DNA of 32,883 nucleotides, from contig NZ_RYYV01000032.1 of assembly GCF_003977665.1 (NCBI RefSeq), positions 1 to 32,883 of the forward strand, in the 5' to 3' direction. The stretch comes from Dyella choica (GTDB lineage Bacteria; Pseudomonadota; Gammaproteobacteria; Xanthomonadales; Rhodanobacteraceae). Under the pieces are notes generated by a model that was given only the letters and a program-made list of their open reading frames with translations, had not been told where the DNA came from and made no database searches. A program made the translations under genes and the position numbers. Below are positions 10,502 to 25,977 of this stretch, piece by piece; position 1 is the first letter of the stretch; each line of letters starts with the position of its first letter.

Positions 10502-11734
10502 TCAGCCACCCCTGGTTGCCATGACGGGAGGCACCGCAGCGGCACGAAGCGCCGGCCCCAGCACCGCGAGCTGACCGATCGACCAGAGCGCGATCGCGCC
10601 TGCCGGGAGGTAGACCGATGGCAGCCGCGGTAGCTCGTAATGCTGCATCAGGAACAGGTTCATGCCGTAAGCCAGCGCCATGCCTAGCGTGATGCCGATC
10701 GTCGCCAGCACGAAGTTTTCGGTCTGGAAGTACCGCAGGATGTCGCTTCGGGTAGCGCCGAGGGCGCGGCGTACGCCGATCGTGCGACGGCGCTGTCCGA
10801 CCCAGAAACTAGCCAGTCCTGCGATCCCCAGCGCTGTGATGACGAGCATTGCCACGATGACGCCCGCAAGCATGCTCGCCATAGCTCGATCGCTCTCGAA
10901 GAACCCGTGGCGCACCTCGTCGTAGGTGCGCTGCTCCACCACGATGCGATTGGGATCGAGACGCTTGAGCTGCGCCAGCGCGGATTTCAGCACGTGCCCG
11001 CGATCCCTCGCTGCGGTGCGGATCACGTAGCTTCCACCCTCCGTAGCGGTAAGGCGTATCGGATACACGATGCTGTACTGAGCGCCGTTGCGCAGATCGT
11101 TCGGTCGTGCCAGCGGGGCACTTACCCCGATCACCTGCAAGGGAATATCGTTGCCTACGTAGATCGTCTTGCCCAGCGTGTTCTGATCCGGCCACAGCCG
11201 CGCGGCGACTGCCTGGGAGACGATCACGGCGTGCGGCAGATTCTTCATGTCGTTGCTGTGCAGCGCAGGCATGACAGCCTTCAGGTCGAGCAGCTCGTCG
11301 GGCTGAAAATCACGCCCCGAAATCAGCCTTACACCCAACGTAGCCAATAAGTTCTGGCCATAGTAGCTCGCCACTTCAAGCGAGTTATCCCGTTGGTTGG
11401 GGCGTAGCTTGATGCCACTGCTGGACATGGCATAGCCACTGAACGGCAGTTGGTTTGCCAAGGCCACCGCTTGAACTCCGGCGATCTGTCGCAAGGTGGC
11501 CAGATCGGTTTGCGCCTGCGCATAGGCACCCGGTCGATCGCCGATGTACGCAAACTGGATCTGCAGGAGTTCGTGCTCGGCGATGCCGCTGGGAATGTCC
11601 ATGCGCTGAAGGCGTTGATGGATGAGAAACACCGCGTTGCACACGATGGCGCAGGTCAGCGCAATCTGCAGGATCAACAGGAGAGCCGTGATCTTGTGGC
11701 GCAGAAGCGTGGAGAGAATCGGCCGGATACCCAT
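10502..11734 (-). CDS. MacB-like ABC transporter permease (second of pair)
   Basis: A 410-residue inner-membrane permease of the FtsX/MacB type. One N-terminal helix (about residues 15-38) is followed by a periplasmic MacB core-like domain to about residue 285, then three C-terminal helices forming the FtsX domain with the RRRTIGVRRALGATRSDI loop typical of these proteins. Such permeases normally work with an ATPase that drives periplasmic conformational change, exporting peptides or lipoproteins or sensing antimicrobials. Start and upstream stop form TGA-T-ATG, so it is translationally coupled to the preceding permease. No ATPase gene is present in this window. Confidence 0.9.
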   Translation of the reverse strand: MGIRPILSTLLRHKITALLLILQIALTCAIVCNAVFLIHQRLQRMDIPSGIAEHELLQIQFAYIGDRPGAYAQAQTDLATLRQIAGVQAVALANQLPFSGYAMSSSGIKLRPNQRDNSLEVASYYGQNLLATLGVRLISGRDFQPDELLDLKAVMPALHSNDMKNLPHAVIVSQAVAARLWPDQNTLGKTIYVGNDIPLQVIGVSAPLARPNDLRNGAQYSIVYPIRLTATEGGSYVIRTAARDRGHVLKSALAQLKRLDPNRIVVEQRTYDEVRHGFFESDRAMASMLAGVIVAMLVITALGIAGLASFWVGQRRRTIGVRRALGATRSDILRYFQTENFVLATIGITLGMALAYGMNLFLMQHYELPRLPSVYLPAGAIALWSIGQLAVLGPALRAAAVPPVMATRGG

Positions 11735-11735
11735 A

Positions 11736-13034
11736 TCAGTTGCCCTTCAGTTGCAGGCCGGGGCTGACGTGGCAGGCACGCCAGGCAGGAAGCACTCCAG
11801 CCAGCAGGCTTGCCCCTACCGCCAGCACGAAGGTGAGCAGCAGCATTGCGCCATCCAGCTGCGCCAACGATGCGTAGTCCGCCGGTTGCCGGCGCACCAG
11901 CCATAGGCCCAGATACGCCAGCAGCAGGCCGCCCACGCCGCCGGCAAGGCCGATCACGCCGGATTCCACCAGCAACTGTACGAACAACGCCCGCCGCGAT
12001 GCGCCTAGCGCACGGCGAACTCCCAGTTCGGCGGAGCGGCGCAGGAACTTGGCCAGCATCAGACTCACCGTGTTGACCAGGCACACGAGCAGGAAGCCCA
12101 GCGCCAGCCAGGTTTGCAGTTGGACGTCACCGGGCACGACATGCTCGTGGTCCAGCCACTGCATCAGATTGCGCAGGCGTACGTTGGGCGGGCGCTGAAA
12201 GCGGCCCAGCGATTTCTGCTCCTGCGAGTAATGAATCAGGAACTGCCGATACGCGGCAGCCTGGGTCGGCGTGGGTAATTGCACCCAGAACTGCAGCCAC
12301 GCGCAAGGTGCCGCGGGAGTGGCGTCGGCGCCGCCATTGCCCCAGCAACCGGCACTGCCGAGATGCGCCAAGTGCAGGTCCTGCGATGTGGATAGCGGCA
12401 GGTAGATGCCTTCGTCGCTGCCGTAGTTCTTGACGTTGAGGTCATAGAAGTGCGGGTTCGGCCGCCAGTCGCCCAACACCCCGATGATGCGCAGAGCATG
12501 CCCTTCCACACGCAGCATGCGTCCGCTGCTGTCGAGGCCGCCAAAGAGCTTGTCATTGAGCTTGCTGCTGATCACTGCGACGGCCGCCCTGGCCGCATCC
12601 TCGGATGCGCCCCAGGCATGGCCATACTTGAACGGTACGCGGAACATGGGAAAGAAATCGGCCGTGGTGTAGCGCGCGGATTGGTAGAACGGATCGAGCG
12701 CGGACTGCGCGGGCTGGATGGCCACCGAACCGCCGGTCATCAGCGCCTGGCGATCCGCCTGCTTCGCCTGCAGCAGGTTCATGCCGTCCGTCCAGGTGAC
12801 CTGGTCCGGCGGTTCGCCCTGGGGTTGATAGTCACCCATATCGCGCGGGTCGAGCTGCGGTGCATACAACGTGCTGCTTGTGCCCGGCAGCGGATTGCCG
12901 GATAGCACGTGCAGCACGGTCAGCGTGGTCATGCTGACGCCGATGCCAAGCGCGATCGCCAACACCATCAGCGCGGTAAGCGCCCTGTTGCGCCTGAGGC
13001 TGCGCCATGAGAGATCGAGGTAGTAGCCGAACAT
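11736..13034 (-). CDS. MacB-like ABC transporter permease (first of pair)
   Basis: A 432-residue permease: N-terminal helix after MFGYYLDLSWRSLRRNRAL, a large periplasmic domain to about residue 300, and three C-terminal helices with the RRSAELGVRRALGASRRAL loop of the FtsX domain. The start at 13034 is preferred over the upstream in-frame ATG at 13085 because GGAGG lies 9 nt before it and the protein then begins like other family members. It is 111 bp downstream of the response regulator gene and coupled to the second permease. Function is probably peptide or drug related export or sensing, inferred from family and two-component neighbours. Confidence 0.9.
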   Translation of the reverse strand: MFGYYLDLSWRSLRRNRALTALMVLAIALGIGVSMTTLTVLHVLSGNPLPGTSSTLYAPQLDPRDMGDYQPQGEPPDQVTWTDGMNLLQAKQADRQALMTGGSVAIQPAQSALDPFYQSARYTTADFFPMFRVPFKYGHAWGASEDAARAAVAVISSKLNDKLFGGLDSSGRMLRVEGHALRIIGVLGDWRPNPHFYDLNVKNYGSDEGIYLPLSTSQDLHLAHLGSAGCWGNGGADATPAAPCAWLQFWVQLPTPTQAAAYRQFLIHYSQEQKSLGRFQRPPNVRLRNLMQWLDHEHVVPGDVQLQTWLALGFLLVCLVNTVSLMLAKFLRRSAELGVRRALGASRRALFVQLLVESGVIGLAGGVGGLLLAYLGLWLVRRQPADYASLAQLDGAMLLLTFVLAVGASLLAGVLPAWRACHVSPGLQLKGN

Positions 13035-13145
13035 TTCTTTCTTCCTCCCTAGCCTTCCGTCTTTACGGGTGGGAGGTTGATCCATCGCCGGCTAGCAGGC
13101 AGCGGATTAGGGGTGAAAGGAGACGTCGGCGTGGCAAGGTGGACT

Positions 13146-13886
13146 TTACTGCCCCAAGCGGGCGAAGAGCGCTTCGCGATATCGTCGGCTGAGCCGGAGG
13201 ACACGACCGTTGTGCAGATGGATTTCGTAGTCCCCCTTGAAGAGGGGGGTAAGCGATCCGATCGAACTGAGGTTTACTGCCGTCGACTTATGGATCCGCA
13301 CGAAGCGCTGCTCGCCCATCTGGGACAACAGATCCTGTAGCGTCCTTCGCAGCAGGTAGGTGCGCGCCGACGTGTGCACGTGGACGTAGTTGTCGTCGGC
13401 CTCAAGCCACTGGATGGATGCCGTATCGATCAGCTGCAGCCGCTCGCCTTCCGGCACCAGCAAGCGCTCGCAGGACAGAGAGCGCTGGCGCCCTATCGCC
13501 ACCGCGGCGGCGCCGGACTGATGGGCGTGAAACCGCTCCCCGACACGCTGCACGGTCCGCGCGAGACGGTCCCGGTCGTAGGGCTTGAGCAGATAGTCGA
13601 TGGCATTGAGGTCGAAAGCCTTCACCGCATGCTCGTCGAATGCGGTCACGAACACGATGAGCGGCGCGCTCGACGGTTCGAGCTGCGCCGCAACCTGAAG
13701 GCCCGACAGCGTCGGCATCTGGATATCGAGAAAAGCTACGTCCGGGCGGAACTGTTCGATGCACTGCGACGCCGACAGGCCGTCCTCCGCCGATCCGACT
13801 ACGGCCATGTCCGCTTGCTCCGACAGCCAACGCTGGAGCTTCTCGCGGGCCGGGGCCTCGTCGTCGGCGATCACCACACGGATCAT
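13146..13886 (-). CDS. LytTR-type response regulator
   Basis: A 246-residue regulator. The receiver domain (residues 1-120) shows the acidic pair in VIADDEAPARE, phosphoacceptor Asp54 in FLDIQMP and the conserved Lys in YLLKPYDRDR. The C-terminal LytTR DNA-binding domain (about 145-245) contains WLEADDNYVHVHT and ERFVRIHKSTAVNL. The ATG overlaps the stop of the sensor kinase gene by four bases (ATGA), so the pair is co-translated. The downstream permease pair is the probable target. Confidence 0.95.
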   Translation of the reverse strand: MIRVVIADDEAPAREKLQRWLSEQADMAVVGSAEDGLSASQCIEQFRPDVAFLDIQMPTLSGLQVAAQLEPSSAPLIVFVTAFDEHAVKAFDLNAIDYLLKPYDRDRLARTVQRVGERFHAHQSGAAAVAIGRQRSLSCERLLVPEGERLQLIDTASIQWLEADDNYVHVHTSARTYLLRRTLQDLLSQMGEQRFVRIHKSTAVNLSSIGSLTPLFKGDYEIHLHNGRVLRLSRRYREALFARLGQ

Positions 13887-14998
13887 GGAGCGGCATCCTT
13901 CTTTGGTATCGAAACTCTCGCGGCAACCCCATCGTCGGCGTTGCTGACCCGCAGGGACGCCATGTTGCCGTAGATGATGTCCAGCCGTTCACGGCAATTG
14001 CGCAATCCGAGCCCGTCGCGCTGCTCAGGCGCCAGCCGGGAGCCCGAGTTCTTGATGACGATTTCCAGGGCGTCGTCCTCGCGCCTGACACTGATCTTGA
14101 TGCGCACTTGCGCCACCGTAGGTTCAACACCGTGCTTGAACGCGTTCTCCAGCAACGGTTGCAGCAACAGCGATGGAACGGGGGTATCGAGCAGGGCCTG
14201 GTCGACCTGCCATTCCAGCGTCACGCGGTCCCGGAACCGCTCGAGCATGATGTTCGCGTACAGCTCGAGCGTGCGTAGTTCTTCAGCGAGCGGGGTCATC
14301 TCATGCTCGTTGGACCGAAGACTGATACGCAGCAAGTCTCCGAGTGCGGCCACCATACGGTCGGCGCGCGCCACGTCGGTATGCATCAGGGATGATACGG
14401 TGTTGAGTGCATTGAACAGGAAATGCGGTCGCAGCTGCCCTTGCAACTGAGCTAGTTGGGCATCTGCCAGCGCTTTCTGCATCTGCAGCAAACGGTGCCA
14501 CTGGAGTTGCCATTGCCCAAAGGACTCGATACCGAACAGCACCCCGAGCCACAATCCCGAGAAATACGTCAGTTTGATGCTCTCATAGACAACGACGAAG
14601 CCCCAGCCCAGGTGCTCATAGGTACGACCCGCCATGGCATAGACGCCGAGCCGTATCGCGTAAACCACGGCAATCCAGGTAATGAAGACCAGCGGCAACC
14701 ATCGTAGGTATCGTCCGAACCATGCCAGCGGCCGGCCCAGGTAGGGCGCATAGCGCCCTCTGACCTGGACGGCAAGCAACATCCATCCGGTCGAGACCAG
14801 CGCCGAACTCCCCTCCCACAGGACGGGCTCCCACCAATGGGTGAGCGGATGGTGGAGCTCATTGCCGATGGAAACGCTGATCATCAGCAGCCAGAACACG
14901 GCCCATAGCGCCCAGAACGTGGCCAGGATCTTCGGAGGCAGCGTCACGCCATAGGCAGCGTGGACGCTTGCCACGGGTAGGTGGGGTCGCATAGTCAT
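13883..14998 (-). CDS. LytS-type sensor histidine kinase
   Basis: A 371-residue membrane kinase with about four hydrophobic helices (residues 22-165), a short coiled linker, a His_kinase domain with phosphoacceptor His192 in LRPHFLFNAL, and an ATPase domain with an N-box-like LLENAFKHG and a GLGLRN G-box. This is the LytS/YehU subgroup that pairs with LytTR regulators. Short loops between helices suggest sensing within or at the membrane, as in peptide-antibiotic sensors. No strong ribosome-binding site is visible; an ATG two codons later (14992) is an alternative. Confidence 0.93.
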   Translation of the reverse strand: MTMRPHLPVASVHAAYGVTLPPKILATFWALWAVFWLLMISVSIGNELHHPLTHWWEPVLWEGSSALVSTGWMLLAVQVRGRYAPYLGRPLAWFGRYLRWLPLVFITWIAVVYAIRLGVYAMAGRTYEHLGWGFVVVYESIKLTYFSGLWLGVLFGIESFGQWQLQWHRLLQMQKALADAQLAQLQGQLRPHFLFNALNTVSSLMHTDVARADRMVAALGDLLRISLRSNEHEMTPLAEELRTLELYANIMLERFRDRVTLEWQVDQALLDTPVPSLLLQPLLENAFKHGVEPTVAQVRIKISVRREDDALEIVIKNSGSRLAPEQRDGLGLRNCRERLDIIYGNMASLRVSNADDGVAARVSIPKKDAAP

Positions 14999-15083
14999 AG
15001 GCGCGAGTGTAACCGTGCCCGCTGCACCAAGGGCTTATTAAGTGGCAAGCGGGACATGCGAGGGGTGAAGCGGACTTCCGCGT

Positions 15084-15118
15084 CGCCCTACCCCCGATAA
15101 CACGGACTAATCACCCTC
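15084..15118. repeat. Short intergenic repeat, copy E (best copy)
   Basis: Contains CGCCCTACCCCCGATAACAC followed by GGACTAATCACCCTC. A small stem, GCGGA-CT-TCCGC (15070-15081), lies immediately before it. On the minus strand this reads as a GTAG-containing unit followed by a hairpin, like GTAG-type REP elements of Xanthomonadaceae. The relationship is an inference. Confidence 0.6.
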
Positions 15119-15183
15119 CTCGGATCCAACTGGCCTCGTGAAGCGATCAAGGCGCAACTCGGAAACTCAACGCCATCCGGTGA

Positions 15184-15966
15184 TCAGACCTTGCCTGCCT
15201 GGAGCTCATGCCGCACGGAAGCAAGTATGTGGTCGATGGCGATCGCAACGTTGCGTTCGTCGTCATGCAAAAAGAAATGGCCGCCGGAGAAAAGTTTTAC
15301 GTCGCAGCGTCCAACGGTATGCATGGACCATGCATCCAGCAGATCGGTTTCGACCATGGCATCCTGCGCGCCGCCGAAGACGTGAATGTCACATGCGATA
15401 GGCTGGCTAGTATGCCGCTGATGATTTTCAGCCAGCTTGAAGTCCGATCGGAGCATCGGCGTAAGCAACTCAAGAAGATCGCTGTCTTCCAGTATGGCCG
15501 CGGGCGTGCCGCCATAGTTGCGTAGCTCGTTGATGAATTCGGCTTGCGGCAGGTCGTGCAACGTGGGTCCTTTGCGCGGAAGATGCGGGGCGCGCGATCC
15601 GGATGCAATCAGCTTCCGAAGCTTCAGTGCATTCTTCTGGCTAATGGTCTGCGCCACGGCGAGTGCTATTTTTGCGCCCACGCTATGCCCAAAAAAAACC
15701 AAATCGTTGGAAGGTAACGTTGCGCGTGCATCATGCAGGGCGCTTGCGATGCACTCCGCGACAACTTCCATATTGTCGATCGGCGGTTCCGTGAATCGCT
15801 TCGCCCGGCCGGGCATCTCAACAGCGACGATGTGTACGTCAGTGCTGATGAGTTTGCTCAGGCTTCGGTAAACCCCCGAGTTGCCGCCGGCATAGTGAAA
15901 AAAAAGGATGGTCAGTGATGCGTGTTCAACCTTCTTGAGGGTATTGAGCCAGTTTGAGCTTCCCAC
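15184..15966 (-). CDS. Type II (external) thioesterase of the NRPS locus
   Basis: A GrsT/RifR-like alpha/beta hydrolase of about 260 residues that removes misloaded or stalled acyl groups from carrier proteins. Motifs are LFFHYAGGNSGVYR near the start, VEMPGRAKR, the nucleophile elbow GHSVGAK, and a C-terminal GGHFFLHDD carrying the catalytic His. The frame is open to an ATG at 16131, but a GTG at 15966 is preferred: GGAG lies 7 nt before it and the resulting length is that of the family, while the extra 55 residues are basic and unlike thioesterases. It is divergent from the MbtH and NRPS genes, fitting a shared control region. Confidence 0.9.
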   Translation of the reverse strand: MGSSNWLNTLKKVEHASLTILFFHYAGGNSGVYRSLSKLISTDVHIVAVEMPGRAKRFTEPPIDNMEVVAECIASALHDARATLPSNDLVFFGHSVGAKIALAVAQTISQKNALKLRKLIASGSRAPHLPRKGPTLHDLPQAEFINELRNYGGTPAAILEDSDLLELLTPMLRSDFKLAENHQRHTSQPIACDIHVFGGAQDAMVETDLLDAWSMHTVGRCDVKLFSGGHFFLHDDERNVAIAIDHILASVRHELQAGKV

Positions 15967-16439
15967 CTTGGATCTCCGGCAAGTCGTTGCATCAAGTGAT
16001 GGTGTGTTCGCTTTTTTGCGGTTGCGCGCGCCTGCGTGCTTGGCGTGAAGGAAGCGTGCACGAATGGCATGCCTTAACAGCTCATTCACCTGTATAGACA
16101 CGTGAATCACGCTTCGGTGAAATGTTTGCACATGAACCCGTGGAAGATGTTGACAAGATACTTACGGCTTGTTCATATTAGCCGGAAGCTGCACACGCAA
16201 GTGTCATTGCTCCGCACTATTTTCTCTCGTTGACACTTCCTTCACTGCTTACGCAAAAAAAGTGCAACTTGCAGCTGCAATCATTTGGTGGCGTTGAAGC
16301 TGTAGCTTATAGGGTGCTGTACGAAATGCATGAAGGTCGACGCTTCGGGGGTGTCGATCCTTTGTTTCGCGATCTTACGTTTCCGTTTTTATCGTGACGC
16401 TTGCGTTTGCGTTCTTTTCGCACTTTTGGGGCCAGGGAT
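15967..16439. promoter_or_regulatory. Divergent control region of the NRPS locus
   Basis: An AT-rich gap between the thioesterase and MbtH-like genes. On the plus strand, TTGACA (16150-16155) is followed 18 nt later by CATATT (16174-16179), a reasonable sigma-70 promoter that would leave a leader of about 250 nt before the MbtH start. A 12-bp perfect palindrome TTGCAGCTGCAA occupies 16269-16280, inside that leader, and may be an operator. TCGAC / GTCGA arms occur near 16340-16356. I see no riboswitch class that I recognise. Confidence 0.45.
16269..16280. promoter_or_regulatory. 12-bp palindrome, candidate operator
   Basis: TTGCAGCTGCAA is a perfect palindrome, preceded by a related half (GTGCAAC). 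It lies between the predicted promoter and the MbtH start. Its role as a regulator site is inferred from position and symmetry only. Confidence 0.3.
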
Positions 16440-16658
16440 ATGACCAATCCTTTTGACGATAGCAATGGCACATTCTTCGTGTTGGTAAATCACGAAGAGC
16501 AGTATTCACTGTGGCCTGAATTCGCACAGATTCCCGCCGGATGGACAGTAAAATTCGGGCCGGACAAGCGCCAGGAATGTCTGGATTATGTAGAGCAGAA
16601 CTGGGTCGATATGCGGCCCAGGAGCTTGATTGAGGCGATGGAAGCGGAACGGGCCTGA
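16440..16658 (+). CDS. MbtH-like protein
   Basis: A 72-residue MbtH-family chaperone that binds and activates NRPS adenylation domains in the cytoplasm. The family signature is complete: NPFDD at the N-terminus, [14 protein letters not shown], then CLDYVEQNW and DMRPRSL. The start is set at the ATG of MTNPFDD; an ATG 39 bp upstream would add a non-family leader. It precedes the synthetase genes by 184 bp on the same strand. The serine and threonine adenylation domains here belong to types that commonly need an MbtH partner. Confidence 0.96.
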
Positions 16659-16704
16659 TAGCGCCTTTATTCGCGCCTTTGTTGCTTTGACGGTGCCAAA
16701 TTAT

Positions 16705-16725
16705 CGGGCTTCCTAGCGAGGCCCG
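16705..16725 (+). other. Stem-loop between MbtH-like gene and NRPS
   Basis: CGGGCTTC and GAGGCCCG pair over 8 bp with one wobble and a 5-nt loop. There is no T-run. It could tune expression of the synthetase relative to the MbtH-like gene, or be incidental. Confidence 0.3.
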
Positions 16726-16842
16726 TATCGCAGTGTCATCAATGTCACCTCTGCAAGCCGGGGGATGGATAACTATGGCCTTATTTTGCTCAAAGCTAAT
16801 TGAATTCAGCGGCTCGGTGTTTTCATCGCGGAATGATCGCGT

Positions 16843-18174
16843 ATGCGAGATCTGACCCGCGGACCGGTCGTCCCGCACTTGTTGAACCTGGCAACGGCGA
16901 TGGCGGTAAACATGCTCGCCGGCACGTTCAATTCGCTGTTGAATGTTTTTTGGCTTGGCAAGCTCAACGCCAAGGCGCAAGCGGCGATGGCTCTTGCCAG
17001 CAGCCCCATCACCATCGTGCTCACCTTGATTCCGATCGTTACGGTGGGAACACGTGTTCTGATAGCCCAGGCGGTGGGCGAAAAAGACCAGGGGAAGGCA
17101 TCGCGCATACTCAATGAGGCCTTCGGTGCCGCCCTGCTGATCATGATGGCTGCGGGCGCCTGTGTCTGGCCGGGGCGTGTTGCACTTGCTGGCTTGCTGA
17201 CGCCCGATCACGAGACTGCCTTGCTGATTGTGGTTCTGCTCAATTGGCAGATCCCTTCCATTATCGTGCAGGTCTTGTCTGCAACCGTGGCCGCCGCGCT
17301 GAGCGGCACGGGGAGCATGCGCGCAAACGTGCAGGCCCAGCTTTTTTCCGTGGGACTCAGTATCGTCCTTTCTCCCCTGTTGATTTTCGGCTGGCTGGGT
17401 ATGCCGGTACTCGGTGTGGCCGGCGCCGGCGTCGCGGGTTTTATCGCCTCCGTGGGCGCCTTGCTTGTTTTCGGCTTGTATTTCACCCGTGCGGGAACCT
17501 ATCTGCGAATACAGCCGGGCTATTGGTTTTCGCGGCCCCAGGTGCTGTGGCAAACCTGCAAGATCGGGCTGCCGGCGGGCTTGCAGAATGGCGTGCTCGC
17601 CTTGTACGGATTGTTCATTATTCAGCTGCTGCGCCCCTTCGGTCCGGCGGAGCAGGCGGCGCTGAGCATTGGACAGCGCTTGCTGCAGTTTGCGGTGATG
17701 CCTTTGGTTGCGATGAGTAGCGCCACGGCTGTGATGGCCGGCCAATGTTTCGGCGCAAGGCTCGGTCGGCGCGCAGGAAGGTGCTTGCGCATGTCACTGA
17801 TGATAAGCGCCGCCGTCGCTCCTTTGATCGTGCTTATCGCACAGCTTTTTCCAGCCACGATATGCCGATGGTTCTCCCATGACCCGGCGGTCGTGGCCGC
17901 TTCGATCAGCTACGTGCGCATTGTCTCGTTCAACATCCTCCCGCTCGCCGTGACGCTTTGCTGCTTTGGCGTACTGATGGGCTTCGGCAATACGCGCGCG
18001 AGCTTGATCGCCATAACGATTTCCGCGCTTGCCCTGGTTGCTCCGGCGCTCGGCCTGTCATGGGTGCCCGGCTTTCGTCCGAGCTGGATATGGTGGCTGG
18101 TGGATGTGTCCAGCCTGGTCGAGATGGCGGTTGCTTTGCTGCTTTTGCGCAAGGAATGGCACAAGCACACCTGG
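16843..18174 (+). other. MATE-family transporter domain at the NRPS N-terminus
   Basis: Residues 1-444 begin [20 protein letters not shown] and continue with alternating hydrophobic segments consistent with 12 helices in two MatE repeats, ending at [17 protein letters not shown] proteins are Na+ or H+ driven exporters of about 440-470 residues, so the domain is essentially complete. With 12 helices, both ends would face the cytoplasm, placing the NRPS on the correct side. The next residues, [15 protein letters not shown], are the standard condensation-to-adenylation linker, so the exporter occupies the place of a condensation domain. Confidence 0.9.
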
Positions 18175-21100
18175 ATGGCACAGGCGATGCCTGAGGCGAT
18201 TGCGGAATGGAACCATACCCGCCATGCCTTGCCCTCCTCTACCTTGCTGTTGCACTTCGAGGCGCAGGTGGCAAGAACGCCTGACGCTGTAGCGGTTGAA
18301 TTTGAATCCTCGGTACTGGACTACCACGCATTGAATGCGGCGGCCAATCGCCTGGCACATCATCTAATTTCCGTCGGAGCCGGTCCTGACAAGATCGTTG
18401 CCGTTGCTCTGCCGCGCTCCATGGACCTGGTCGTGGCCTTGCTGGCCGTGCTCAAAGCCGGGGCGGCGTATTTGCCGCTGGATACGTCCTATCCCTCCGA
18501 GCGCTTGCGTCACATGGTGGATGACGCAAGACCCATCCGGGTGCTGTCCCATCGCGGCAAAGTGGCGCTGCTTCCTACGGGCGACCATGCGTTGTGCCTG
18601 GATGATCCCGATGTCATCGCGGCACTCGCGGCGCAATCGGACCGTAATCCCGAAGATACCGATCGCCACCACCGGCTGCGCCCCAATCATCCGGCGTATG
18701 TGATCTACACGTCGGGCTCGACTGGCCGCCCTAAGGGCGCCGTCAATACGCACGAAGCCATCGTCAATCGCCTGAAATGGATGCAGGCCGAATATGGCCT
18801 GGGTCCGGATGACTGCGTGTTGCAGAAAACACCCATCAGCTTCGATGTCTCGGTATGGGAATTCTTCTGGCCGCTGCTGGAAGGCGCGCGCCTTGTCCTG
18901 GCTCGCCCCGATGGGCACAAGGATCCTGCGTACCTGGCCTCGCTTATCCGCGAGCGCGGTGTCACGACGTTGCACTTTGTGCCTTCGATGCTGCAGGCGT
19001 TTGTGCGCGAAGCAACCATCGTGCAATGCAAGGGTTTGCGGCGCGTGATATGCAGTGGCGAAGCGCTATCCAAGGCGTTGCAGCTGCAATTTCAGCAGTT
19101 GCTGGATGCGCCGTTGCACAACCTCTATGGTCCTACTGAAGCGGCGGTCGATGTCACGGCCTGGGCTTGTGACGAGCATGACCAAGCTTCTTCCGTGCCG
19201 ATCGGGCGACCGATCTGGAATACGCAGATCCATATCCTCGATGACAACCTGCGTCCGGTATCCGTTGGCGAGCAAGGGGAGTTGTATATCGCGGGCCTCG
19301 GTCTTGCGCGTGGCTACCTGAATCGCCCGGCCCTTACGGCTGAGCGCTTTGTCGCCAATCCCTTCGGGGCATCCGGCTCGCGCCTGTATCGCAGCGGCGA
19401 TCTGGCTCGGTGGCGCGAAGATGGACAGATCGAATACCTCGGCCGTATCGATGACCAGGTGAAGATTCGCGGCTTGCGCATCGAGCTGGGCGAAATCGAG
19501 GCGTGCCTGGTTGACGACCCGGCCGTCGACCAGGCCGCGGTGGTCGTGCGGGAGGACCAGCCCGAACATAAGCAGCTCATCGCCTACGTGGTGCCCCGAG
19601 CTGCAGACGTAGTAACGACTGATCAGCAAGCCGTTAACGATCGCGTGCAGCAATGGCAGCAGCTGTATGACAGGATGTATCGCGATCACCTCGATGACAG
19701 CGAGTTGTCCGCTTTCGCTGGCTGGGTTTCAAGCTACGACAACCAGCCGATTCCATCGGACCAGATGCGTGCATGGCGCGACAGCATCGCCGGCCGTGTC
19801 CTGTCGCTGGCACCGCAGCGCGTGCTGGAAATAGGGGTCGGATCCGGGCTGATCCTGCATGCTGTCGCTCCCCATTGCGAGGCCTATTGGGGGCTGGATG
19901 TGTCCGCGGCGGCCATCAATAGTCTGGGCAAACGTCTAGAGCGGGATACCGGCCTGCGCGATCGCGTCATCTTGCGCAGGCAGTCCGCCGATGATTTCCA
20001 GGGGCTGCCAGCGCGCTACTTCGATACCGTCGTGATCAATTCGGTCGTCCAGTATTTTCCCGATGCGGCGTACCTGCAGAGGGTGCTCCGGCAATCACTG
20101 GAACTTCTCAAGCCCGGTGGCCACCTGGTTGTCGGCGATGTACGAAATCGACTGACGCAGCGCTGTCTGGCAGCGGCTGTTACGCTTCATCAGGCAGGTG
20201 CTTCGGATGCTGGAGCGCAGCTGCTTCGATCGTTATCGCAGCGCATGCTGGCGGAACGCGAACTTCTGATCGACCCCGCTTACTTTGTTGCCCTGAAGCA
20301 GGAATGGGCCGATGTGGCCGGCGTTGATGTGCGGCTCAAGGACGGGCTAGACCACAACGAGCTGACCCGGCATCGCTACGACGTGGTGCTGCACAAAGCA
20401 CCCGTTCGCGCGCATTCGCTGCAGTCTGCCGTGACTGTTCGGTGGGGGAAAGATTTGTCTGCGCCGGATGAGATTGCCGGTCTCATCGCCGGGCAAAGGC
20501 CTCCTGCCCTGCGCATACAGGCCATTCCCAACCTGCGCTTGAGCAGCGAGATGGCCGCTCTCATCGCGCTTGAGGGGGGCGAGGCGCATACGGCGCTGAA
20601 TAACTTGCGCGCGGCTGCCGACAATGCCGTCGATCCGCACCGGTTGAGCGAACACGCGCAAACCTTGGGCTATCGTTGCCTCTCGACATGGTCGGCCGAT
20701 CCGGCGTGTTTCGATGCCGTACTGGTCGATAACGCGCAGGCGTGGGACGGCACAGTCACGGACCTTTACCTCGCGGGAACGCCGGTATCTGCGCCGGCAT
20801 CCATCTACGTTAGTACGCCGATGGAAGCTGGGAGCCAGCATTTGCTGATCACCAGCCTGCGCGAAAAGCTGGCGCGTAGCCTGCCCGATTACATGGTGCC
20901 GGCGGCCATCGTGTGCCTGGATGAGCTGCCGGTCACCCCGAATGGCAAGCTTGATCGCAAGCGCCTGCCAGCGCCCAGCTTCGGCGGCGGCGGTCGGGCA
21001 CCCGCTACACCGCAGGAAATGCTTCTGGCCAGGCTTTTCGCCGAAACGCTGGGGCTGGAACTTGTCAGTGCCGACGACAACTTCCTCGCGCTGGGCGGCG

Positions 21101-24100
21101 ACAGTATCACGGCTATCGAGCTTGCAAGCCGCGCGAAGCAGGAAGGTTTGCCGCTTACCGTGCAACAGGTATTTCAGTATGGCAACGTGGCCGAACTGGC
21201 GGTTGCCGCGGCTTCAGCGCCGCGTGCCGCAAGCGCTTCCACCCAACCACTGATTGAGCTGAGCGCCAGACAGCAAGCCGCACTGGACCTCGAACCCCAT
21301 GCCGTGGCCGAAGCCCTGCCCTTGTCTCCTTTGCAAAAGGGCCTGCTGTTCCACGCGCTGTTCGATACACAGGCCGATGATCCCTACCTTGTGCAGATGT
21401 TGGCGGGACTGGGCGGCGCACTGGATGAATCATTGCTGCGGCGTTGCGCACATACGTTGCTGGAGCGCCACGCCGCGCTGCGTGCGGGCTTCGTCTACCA
21501 GGATGTAGAAGATCCCCTGCAGGTTATTCCGCGGGACATCACGCTGCCCTGGCGATTCGTCGATTTGTCCGACGATCCGGAAACAGGCTCTGAAGAGCGG
21601 CTCGAACATTTCCTTGAGCTCGATCGCTTGGAGCGTTTTCATCCCGCCCAACCGCCGCTGCTCCGTTTTCAATTGATACGGCTGGAGCCGGCCCGTCACT
21701 GCCTGCTGTTTACGGCGCACCATATTCTTTTCGACGGCTGGTCCGCTCAGATCCTGTTGCGTGAACTGCTGGAGCTCTATCGCGCGGGCGGCGCTGCCGG
21801 TGCGTTGCCTGCTGCACCCTCTTATCGGGACTATCTTCATTTCATCCAGCACCGAGATCTGTCAGCGGCCCGGCAAGCCTGGCAACGCGAGCTGGCGGGA
21901 TTGGAAGCACCGACACACCTGGCCAGAACGAAACCGGGACATCCCATTGGGAGCGCATGCGACACCGTCGTCCGCAGCCTGGATGAAGTTGCATTGCAAC
22001 GCATTACGGCCTTCGCGCGCAGCCATGCATTGACGCTCAATACACTGATGCAGGCGGCATGGGCGTTGGTGCTGCACAAATGGAGCGGACGCAACGATGT
22101 CGTATTCGGCATCGCCGTATCCGGGCGGCCGGCAGATGTCGAAGGCGTAGAACGCATGGTGGGCTTGCTGATCCATACGCTGCCGCTGCGCCTTCGGCTG
22201 GATCCTGGACAGCGTGTCGTCGATGTATTGAAGGCGCTGCAGGCACGCCAGGCCGAGCTGATCGAGCACCAGTACCTCGGTCTGGCAGAGATCCAGGCGC
22301 TCAGCAACCTGGGGCCGCTCTTCGACAGCCTGATCAATGTGGAGAACTACCCGGCCCATGGGAAAAACGATCCTGCCGGTGTCGCCGAGCCGATTCTTCT
22401 CGATAGCGGCTTCCATAAAGGCGGTGCGACCCACTATCCGTTAAGCATCGCCTGCTCGCTTGCGCGCGGTATGCGCGTGACTTTCAGTTTCCGGCCCGAG
22501 TGTTTCGATCGTTTCGAGGTCGAACGGATGGCCGGATGCCTAATGCTTGCACTCGAGGCATTCACCGATGGCGATCGCCGCCTGGGGGAACTGGACCTGC
22601 TTGATCAGGCTGAGCGAGGCAAGGTGATTGCGCCCTGGCGCACTGACGTGCCAAGTAGGGACACGTTACCCACCGTTGCCGAGTTGTTTGAACAGCAAGC
22701 CGCTCAGACGCCTAGCGTCGTGGCCTTGGCCTGCAATGACCGCCGTTTCACCTATGCCGAACTGAATGCTCGCGCCAACCAGCTTGCGCACTGGCTGATC
22801 GGTGAGGGCGTAGGACCGGGGCAGTTGGTGGGTGTCGCCCTACCCCGATCGCCGGAGCTGGTGATCAGCCTGCTTGGCATTTTCAAGGCCGGTGCCACCT
22901 TTTTGCCGCTGGATCCGGAATACCCGGCCGAGCGCATCCACTTTGTGCTGGAGGACGCCAATCCTTCGCGCGTGCTCAGTTTGCGCAGTGTCAGCGCGAA
23001 GCTGCTGTCTGATCATCGCGTGCAATGCCTGGATGAAGCGATCGTGCAGGCGGGGCTGGCACGCAGTTCGAAAGGCAACCCCACCAACGTGCACCGCCAC
23101 CGCGCGTTGCGCGGGGCGCATTCGGCCTACGTTATCTATACCTCCGGCTCCACCGGGCGCCCCAAGGGCGTTGTCGTGGAGCAGCAGAGTCTGGCAGCCA
23201 AACTCCTGGCCGTGCAGCCGGTCCTGGGCGATCGCGAGGCGATGTGCTTTCCCAATCTGTCATCGCACGCTTTCGATATTTCACTGCTGGAAATGCTCCT
23301 GCCGCTGATCTGCGGCGGTGCGGTGCGACTGGTGGATACGCCGCAAAGCAGCGGCATGCACGCGCTGATCGAGCAAACCCGCGATGCAACCACCCTGCAT
23401 GCAGTGCCGAGCCTCATGCGCGCATGGCTGGATGCGGTGCAATCACAAGGAGGCAAGACGCTGTATCCGCTGCTTCGCTGTCTGCTGACCGGCGGAGACG
23501 CGGTTCCGCAAAGCCTGCTTGACGCTTTGAGACACGGTTTTCCGGGTGCGCGGGTGATCGAGCTATACGGCCCCACCGAAGCCGCCATCATTTGCGCGCA
23601 TCACGTGGCCGACGAAGCATCCGCTCACGCACCACCGCATTGCATCGGGCGGCCCTTCGCCCAGGTGTCATTGTATGTGCTCGATGCGTGGCTTTCGCCG
23701 CAGCCGCAGGGGGTGGTGGGCGAGCTATACATCGCGGGTGATTCGCTTGCACGGGGTTATCTGAAGCGACCCGCACTCAGCGCCGAGCGTTTCGTGGCCA
23801 ATCCCTTTGGACCTGCCGGCAGCCGCATGTACCGCAGCGGCGACCTGGTGCGCCGCTTGCCGGACGGCAATCTGGAGTTCGTCGGGCGCGCCGACAACCA
23901 GATCAAGATTCGCGGCTTCCGTATTGAACTCGGTGAAATTGAAGCCTGCCTTTTACGCCAGCCGGCGGTGGGCCAGGCAGCCGTGGTCGCGCGCACCATG
24001 CCAGGTGGCCAGAAGCAGCTTTTCGCGTACGTGACGGCTGCGGCAGGCCACGTACTGGATGCGCAGGTGCTGCGCCGCAGTCTGTCCGAGCAACTGCCCG

Positions 24101-25977
24101 ACTACATGTTGCCTGCGTCGATCACGGCCATCGACAGCATGCCCTTGAACGTCAACGGCAAGGTTGACCGGCAGGCGTTGCCGGAACCTGCATTCGAAGG
24201 CGGCCATGGCCGCGCGCCGGGCAGCGTCAATGAAAAAATCCTCGCGGGGCTTTACGCACAGATACTGGGCATGGACGAAGTGGGCGCCGACACCAGCTTT
24301 TTCGACCTTGGTGGAGACAGCATCGGTGTACTGCAACTGGTCAACCACGCGCATAAGGCCGGCTTGGTATTTACACCGAGGGAGGTGTTCGAGCATCCAC
24401 GCGTGGCCGCGTTGGCCAGGGTGGCGCGCACTGCCTCGTCCGCGCCGATAATCGAGGAGGTTGCGCACGGCGAAGTGCCGCTCACACCGGTGTTGCATGC
24501 CATGTTCCAGCAGCTATCCGGGCAAGACCTGCCCGCGGCCTTCTGCCAGCAACAACTTCTGCGCGTACCGCCACACTGCGGACCTGATGCATTGATCGAT
24601 GCGCTGCAGGCGATGCTGGACCGTCACGCCGTGTTGCGCATGCGCGCATATCGCGACCGGCAGACGCAAGCGTGGCGCCTGGAAGTGCCACCTGTAGGCA
24701 GCTTGCGCGCCATGGCGTGCTTCAGCTGCTGCGACATTGCGGGCCTGGATGCGCCTTCTGTTCGTGCCGTGATCGATACGCAGCGGGAGCTTGCGGCGAA
24801 ACGCCTGGCGCCGACTCAAGGAATGATGCTCCAGGCCGTGTGGTTTGACGCCGGCCATGCGCCAGGCCGCCTGCTCTTGCTTGTGCATCATCTGGCGGTC
24901 GACGGCGTGTCCTGGCGCATTCTCGTTCCGGACCTGGTGCAGGCGTGGAAGAGCGCTCGTGGGAGCAGCAGCGTCCCGCCCGACGCAGGCGGCAGCTCAT
25001 TCCGGCACTGGGCCAAACGCTTGCGTGAGCATGCGCTCGAAGGTGCGCACGCTGACGAAATGCCGCAGTGGCTGCATATCGTCCGACAGGCGGATGGGTT
25101 ACTGGGTTCGCGCAGGCTTGCTTCGCACGATACGGTTGCAACGCGCGGCCATTTTGAACTGGTGTTGCCGGCCGCGACTGCCGAACCTTTGCTGACCCGC
25201 GTGCCTTCGCTGTTTCATGCAAGCGTCAATGACGCCTTGCTGACTGGTTTCGTCATCGCCATGGCCGTTTGGCGGCGCGGCCGCGGCGACGATACGGGGC
25301 CGGGCTTGCGGCTGGACCTGGAGGGCCATGGCCGTGAAACGCTTTGGGATCACCTCGATCTCAGCCGCACCGTGGGCTGGTTTACCAGCCAGTATCCGGT
25401 GTGGCTGGACCCGGGCGATATCGACGCGGATCAGGCGCTGAACGGTTCGACCGATCTGGGCATCGCCTTCAAGCGCGTCAAGGAGCAATTGCACTCAGTG
25501 CCAGCGCACGGCATCGGATTCGGTTTGTTGCGCTATCTCAACCCCGTCACGGCGGCGCAACTGGAGGGAGCCTGCAGCCAAGTTGGCTTCAACTATCTGG
25601 GCCGGTTCGCGGCGCGCACCGACGAGGATTGGTCACTCGCGCCGGAACATTCAGGCCTGGCCGGGCCGCTCGATCAAGGCCTGCGAATGCAACACGTGAT
25701 CGAACTCGATGTGATGGTGCATGACCACACTGAAGGGTCCGAACTGGTTGCCACATGGTCCTGGGCGAGCGGGATCCTCCGCGAGCAAGACATACGGCAG
25801 CTCGCCACTCTCTGGTTCGCCGCGCTGCGCGCCCTGGTTGCGCTTGCCGACGATCCGGATGCAGGCGGTTTCACGCCCTCGGATATCGGCTTGCTGGCCC
25901 TGGATCAAAGCCAGATCGAGAGTCTGGAAGCCGAGTTCGACCTGAGTTTTTCGCCACCGAACAGCGATGCGAGCTGA
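16843..25977 (+). CDS. MATE exporter-NRPS fusion: MATE-A(nMT)-PCP-C-A-PCP-E
   Basis: A 3044-residue protein with an uninterrupted frame. Order by residue: MATE transporter 1-444; linker 445-469; A1 with inserted N-methyltransferase 470-1375; PCP1 (LGGDSI, Ser1421); C1 1490-1930 (HHILFDG, His1627); A2 1945-2445 ([11 protein letters not shown] 2099-2109); PCP2 (Ser2493); E1 2540-3030 (HHLAVDG, His2683; EGHGRE 2827-2832; NYLG 2917). It should load Ser, N-methylate it, condense it with residue 2 and epimerise that residue. An in-frame TGA nine bases upstream of the ATG rules out a longer N-terminus, so no starter condensation domain is missing in this frame. GGAA nine nt before the ATG is a weak ribosome-binding site. 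The next synthetase starts three bases after the stop. Confidence 0.95.
18211..21297 (+). other. NRPS module 1: A (Ser) with N-methyltransferase, PCP
   Basis: Core motifs are [11 protein letters not shown] at residues 622-632, NLYGPTE at 760-766, the A8 block at 867-886 and NGKLDR at 1367-1372. Code residues aligned by hand to GrsA give DVWHISLVDK, the serine type (compare DVWHFSLVDK of EntF). Between A8 and A10 about 435 residues (nt 19555-20862) form an N-methyltransferase with the SAM site VLEIGVGSG at 994-1002. PCP1 Ser1421 carries the phosphopantetheine. No condensation domain precedes it. Confidence 0.88.
21298..25974 (+). other. NRPS module 2: C-A-PCP-E
   Basis: The C domain has an intact HHILFDG. 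The A domain code reads DILHLGLIIK. This differs at two positions from a glycine code (DILQLGLIWK) and at three from a hydroxyphenylglycine code (DIFHLGLLCK), so I do not assign a substrate. The following E domain has an intact HHLAVDG and EGHGRE, so residue 2 should be released as D unless it is glycine. Confidence 0.85.

Follow-up and report, generated by a model that had tools for sequence, protein, structure and literature searches.

To our knowledge, non-ribosomal peptide synthetase (NRPS) lines located at the membrane beside exporters have been studied mostly through loose contacts of separate proteins. According to the portions of the published reports on which this account draws, the CesCD transporter holds the cereulide synthetase CesAB at the membrane and matters for synthesis (PMC7527721); ClbM of the colibactin cluster and SolL of the solanimycin cluster are MATE exporters of NRPS/polyketide synthase clusters (PMC9854587, PMC9765074), deletion of solL leaving antifungal activity unchanged (PMC9765074); and Pls, the epsilon-poly-L-lysine synthetase, carries transmembrane domains on the NRPS chain itself (PMC9617413). 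The locus described here lies in a 32,883-bp stretch of Dyella choica DNA, referred to as the window, which is a complete contig (C26 of genome G000; 5.49 Mb in 68 contigs) and carries a gene whose single reading frame joins a MATE exporter to the first NRPS of a cluster.

Like the CesCD–CesAB pair, the fused gene would bring a cluster transporter and an NRPS together at the membrane, here by a covalent link read from the sequence. In the sections of the cereulide report drawn on here, CesCD differs in being an ABC transporter and a separate protein that makes contact via its ATPase CesC (PMC7527721), whereas the window transporter is a MATE by both profile and fold and not of the ABC kind. 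By analogy with cereulide synthetase, the fused gene is best read as a transporter-tethered NRPS whose tether would be covalent. ClbM and SolL, as far as these sources describe them, are free-standing proteins, unlike the fused MATE; Pls resembles the fused gene in having NRPS and transmembrane domains in one chain. The new element is the covalent form of an NRPS with its cluster exporter, the association of exporter and NRPS being known in itself. The membrane part of Pls, we presume, does not belong to a known transporter family and is located after its adenylation (A) and carrier (T) domains.

The reading frame is open without interruption from 16843 to 25977, which bears out an earlier note on this DNA in its description of a MATE exporter fused to an NRPS start module. 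That the transporter is of full length also holds, the MATE part spanning residues 1–446, with twelve helices and a complete MATE fold predicted. PF01554 is matched in two stretches of this part with 118.7 bits (cut-off 24.9) and TIGR00797 with 149.2 bits (cut-off 147.4; 16843–18260); the SolL equivalog NF041801 scores 97.4 bits, below its cut-off of 780. The structure model was built on an alignment that included rows joining condensation (C) and A domains, and its low-confidence A part was not used. From the twelve helices and the loop charges, the C terminus of the MATE part is predicted to be cytoplasmic, as the note had proposed. In a ten-sequence alignment (the window MATE and nine unfused relatives), E92 and the other invariant columns are retained, by definition of that list. 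Residue 34 in helix 1 (16942–16944), a usual acidic site of that helix, is Asn, as it is in eight of the nine unfused relatives; P0011 and others have Asp.

For the NRPS part, Pfam returned two AMP-binding, one methyltransferase, two carrier and two condensation-type stretches in addition to MatE; domain borders and order are our own cuts. The motifs are intact, and the protein has the features of an NRPS starter, namely A and T domains with core motifs and a first A domain that is not preceded by a C domain. The embedded methyltransferase is predicted from its position to be N-methylating, and the terminal condensation-family domain is probably an epimerization (E) domain, judging by its motif and position. 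When the starter module was compared with seven of its 120 listed protein relatives, the best-matching module started at residue 213 at least in all seven and past residue 1400 in five, so the counterpart of the starter module is usually found inside longer proteins.

At the junction, similarity of the MATE part to D. silvatica extends to about residue 453, and similarity of the NRPS part to D. flagellata starts at residue 453. The NRPS part opens with the stretch normally found between C and A domains. No in-frame stop occurs within 18000–18500. A TGA at 18192 belongs to the frame shifted by 2, and reading with a shift of 1 meets its next stop at 18290. In-frame comparison of the MATE tail gave a significant match with one of seven relatives, D. 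silvatica being the best fit, although as proof of the reading frame such tail similarity would be weak.

The closest named relatives of the MATE part are those of D. silvatica (57% identity) and D. flagellata (55%). Their loci (P0002/L005 and P0003/L006, respectively) resemble the window in MATE clade, gene order and strand, the MATE gene standing directly upstream of an NRPS gene, but differ from it in that the two are separate genes with a stop, a spacer and an NRPS start of its own. These pairs, together with ClbM and SolL as far as the papers describe them, agree with the note's statement that exporters are normally separate genes. In D. flagellata, 52 bp separate the MATE stop from the first ATG of the NRPS, which opens with an A domain; in D. 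silvatica, the gap measures 62 bp if the first in-frame ATG is taken as the NRPS start and 128 bp if the ATG at L005 11009 is, and the NRPS opens with a truncated C domain. The first NRPS frame of D. silvatica (L005 10943–13597) stops soon after its carrier domain and is overlapped by the next (13558–20000), which may reflect a frameshift or a gene in two pieces.

Across 233 genomes of the family, a MATE match at E ≤ 1e-60 was seen in four: the fused gene itself, D. flagellata (G005), D. silvatica (G083) and G044, whose MATE is 42% identical and for which the 20 kb examined showed no NRPS match. In the DNA examined, NRPS domain matches accompanied only 2 of 27 MATE loci in the species-genome collection, both from Dyella, several of the loci being short. 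Unfused MATE relatives, which were sought among proteins of 0.55–1.75 times the query length, a range in which fusions are undetectable, are 434–458 residues long. On the tree, the window MATE falls in a clade with 100/100 support together with both Dyella MATEs and P0004–P0007. Faster evolution of the MATE after fusion was considered and rejected: although the window MATE has the longest end branch of its clade (0.58), the path of its sisters from the same fork measures 0.49–0.53. Because the two nearest named MATE relatives keep exporter and NRPS as neighbours, the fusion is most simply seen as a local derivative of such a pair in Dyella, probably made by deletion.

On balance, we consider it probable that a MATE exporter and a first NRPS gene are truly fused in frame here, giving a membrane-anchored starter beside an exporter. 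Several observations weigh against this interpretation, one being that the fusion is known from a single genome, with no second case in searches of genomes, plasmids and proteins. Protein words of residues 1–470 were compared with NRPS-sized proteins, and of 7979 candidates scored the only match was the window itself. The MATE part had matches in 2 of 16 genomes of the genus and close matches in 4 of 233 of the family, one of them fused in each case (own genome counted). A junction query made of the MATE half and the A half was spanned on both sides only in the own genome, among the matches listed from 398 genomes of the order, 369 of the class, 398 of the phylum and 392 of another family; these sets overlap, at most four candidates were scored per genome, and fusions with a distant MATE would escape. 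None of 570 matching plasmid records covered 80% of the query in one place, and DNA comparison with plasmids gave only short NRPS matches, in seven records. Among NRPS proteins related to the starter module, 2625 in all, the 120 listed (read by eye) lacked PF01554, the window aside, and no MATE–NRPS fusion was found in the literature searched, which comprised titles and abstract openings, with subscription papers and preprints mostly outside its scope. The earlier note had itself named a lack of relatives with the same fusion as telling against it, and none was found as far as these searches reach. On one assembly, the fusion is nevertheless likely to be real in this genome. In a Bacteroidales metagenome contig (L032 10001–13000), MatE is followed by Peptidase_M23 in one 999-residue frame.

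The other contrary points concern the tail, the MATE sequence and the relatives. The in-frame tail match was not significant in six of the seven relatives, and the distal tail alone gave a significant match in none of the seven (p 0.16 to 1.0); among 21 shifted-frame tail comparisons, p values of 0.008 (P0005) and 0.017 (P0004) were obtained. The window MATE departs alone at 10 columns that are otherwise invariant; the corresponding counts are 0–4 in six relatives of 52–57% identity and 7, 5 and 12 in three at 47%. The first A domain is 45% identical to those of the two Dyella relatives, and a methyltransferase was not found in the first NRPS of either, which means that the NRPS genes cannot be called clear orthologs. 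Where contexts are known, which sets aside P0004–P0007 on their contigs of 2.8–4.4 kb, NRPS adjacency does not form a single clade on the MATE tree (3 changes; 500 of 500 shuffles as low). Finally, the exporter is joined to the first module, not to a releasing one.

If the fusion is real, its origin and working may be pictured as follows. A deletion would have taken the MATE stop, the spacer and whatever preceded the A-domain lead-in, where D. silvatica has its truncated C domain. The product would be a single chain of 3044 residues with twelve inner-membrane helices, a cytoplasmic C terminus and the starter module directly beneath, an anchoring in cells that is suggested by this anatomy. By docking to this anchored starter protein, the remaining NRPS subunits would be drawn to the membrane beside an exporter present in a fixed 1:1 ratio. 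The MATE part would still transport, its cargo presumably being the peptide of this cluster, and synthesis and export would be coupled by place rather than by direct hand-over, which is unlikely because release should occur from a later module on another polypeptide. For the same reason, the note's suggestion that the peptide is never released into the cytosol does not follow; its interpretation as a whole is partly supported, with tethering and export read from the gene's layout. That the exporter acts as the first domain of the assembly line, such that the starter recruits the line, fixes the ratio and, through location, links synthesis with export and self-protection, is a tentative proposal. 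If true, the locus would offer a natural case of both functions in one chain, its unfused relatives serving as controls, making the question of membrane assembly directly testable, and exporter fusion would suggest itself as a route to secreting assembly lines.

Among the alternatives, a neutral accident is the first to be weighed: a deletion would have joined two genes whose parts work as before, the joining being without consequence. The singleton distribution suits this, as does the arrangement in the two relatives, where the genes are already neighbours and in-frame loss of stop and spacer would fuse them. The frame, however, is open through the MATE, the NRPS and the next NRPS, so that no decay of the line is visible, and a twelve-helix protein tied to a megasynthase should at least shift its place; we regard an inconsequential fusion as unlikely.

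Its singleton status leaves some room for an internal start or a one-base sequencing error. In the first case, the frame would be continuous but ribosomes would also, or mainly, begin at ATG 18187 or 18175 and yield free NRPS, which is compatible with a real fusion. The ribosome-site energy at ATG 18187 (−5.5) is stronger than at the starts at 16843 (−3.5) and 25981 (−2.2), but it falls short of the −6.4 that bounds the lowest 5% of random coding 20-mers, for which the median is −2.6 and the lower quartile −4.0; ATG 18175 reaches only −1.5, and the NRPS starts of the relatives −6.1 and −9.1. These energies do not discriminate real from internal starts at the junction, and an internal start appears rather improbable.

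In the second case, a base missed or added at about 18150–18190 during sequencing or assembly would hide a MATE gene ending at TGA 18192–18194 and an NRPS gene starting at the overlapping ATG 18187 (ATGCCTGA). The shifted TGA does lie beside this in-frame ATG, a MATE of about 450 residues would suit the lengths of the relatives, and the fusion is in none of the other genomes searched. Against this, no homopolymer in 18120–18230 exceeds four bases, tandem repeats are lacking in 18000–18400, the in-frame tail fits D. silvatica best, and both Dyella relatives have gaps rather than overlaps between the genes. Third-position G+C also peaks in the same frame until a stretch starting at 18223, a weak signal because it flips inside the sure A domain too. 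We judge such an error quite improbable. Least probable is a MATE part reduced to a membrane anchor with transport lost, which the 10 lone departures would fit and which the complete predicted fold, the retained E92 and other invariant columns, a branch not clearly longer than those of its sisters and an Asn34 common to most unfused relatives speak against.

The membrane-anchored starter favoured above is set in a recognizable neighbourhood (Table 1): the MbtH-like protein, the thioesterase and the second NRPS around it make the locus part of an NRPS cluster, of which the fused gene is the first NRPS gene on contig C26. The second NRPS starts three bases past the fused-gene stop, and its frame is incomplete at the contig edge. 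A promoter and terminator scan of 16000–18400 gave counts close to those of shuffled sequence. On the strand opposite to the cluster, 10502–14998 holds two MacB-like permease genes next to those of a histidine kinase and a response regulator of the LytTR type, a possible second export system.

Table 1. Features of the cluster, the fused gene and its junction (positions in the window)
Feature	Position	Strand	Basis
Thioesterase, probably type II, divergent	15184..16131	-	Pfam PF00975, 133.1 bits
MbtH-like protein, 72 aa, 5' of fused gene	16440..16658	+	Pfam PF03621, 103.8 bits
Fused gene, 3044 aa, MATE-A-nMT-T-C-A-T-E (nMT, N-methyltransferase, predicted)	16843..25977	+	One open frame, Pfam, own domain cuts
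Complete MATE transporter, residues 1-446, 12 predicted transmembrane helices	16843..18180	+	Profiles, alignment, predicted fold
Junction: MATE tail (residues 437-454), then directly A-domain lead-in (455-466)	18151..18240	+	Similarity to relatives
ATGCCTGA: in-frame ATG (residue 449), possible internal start, overlapping TGA in frame shifted by 2	18187..18194	+	Stop/start scan, ribosome-site energies
Adenylation domain A1, starter module	18208..19662	+	Own cut, motifs
Methyltransferase embedded after A1 core	19708..20382	+	Own cut; VLEIGVGSG
Carrier domain T1	20923..21192	+	Own cut; LGGDS
Condensation domain	21298..22632	+	Own cut; HHILFDG
Adenylation domain A2	22663..24192	+	Own cut
Carrier domain T2	24223..24432	+	Own cut; LGGDS
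Terminal condensation-family domain, probably epimerization	24478..25932	+	Own cut; HHLAVDG
Second NRPS of the line, C-A-T-E-C-A, reaching contig end	25981..32883	+	Pfam matches, own domain cuts

Two further contigs of the genome, C32 (L049, left end) and C48 (L054, right end), carry NRPS frames that each open within an A domain. The A-domain ends of L049 and L054 gave near-equal match scores (206 and 204), and the NRPS cluster may therefore be interrupted by repeats; C26, C32 and C48, which were left unjoined, are possibly pieces of one region.

A second NRPS cluster of the same genome, on contig C12 (220–225 kb), includes an unfused A–nMT starter NRPS, and an MFS exporter gene in the same orientation lies 670 bp upstream of it (L052 3528–4787 and 2–2857). 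This NRPS is 43% identical to the window starter over 933 residues. Considering C26 and C12 together, a transporter gene precedes a starter NRPS twice in this genome and is fused to it once. A different, lone MATE on C12 (L052 6202–7629) comes directly after a P450 gene (7622–9106).
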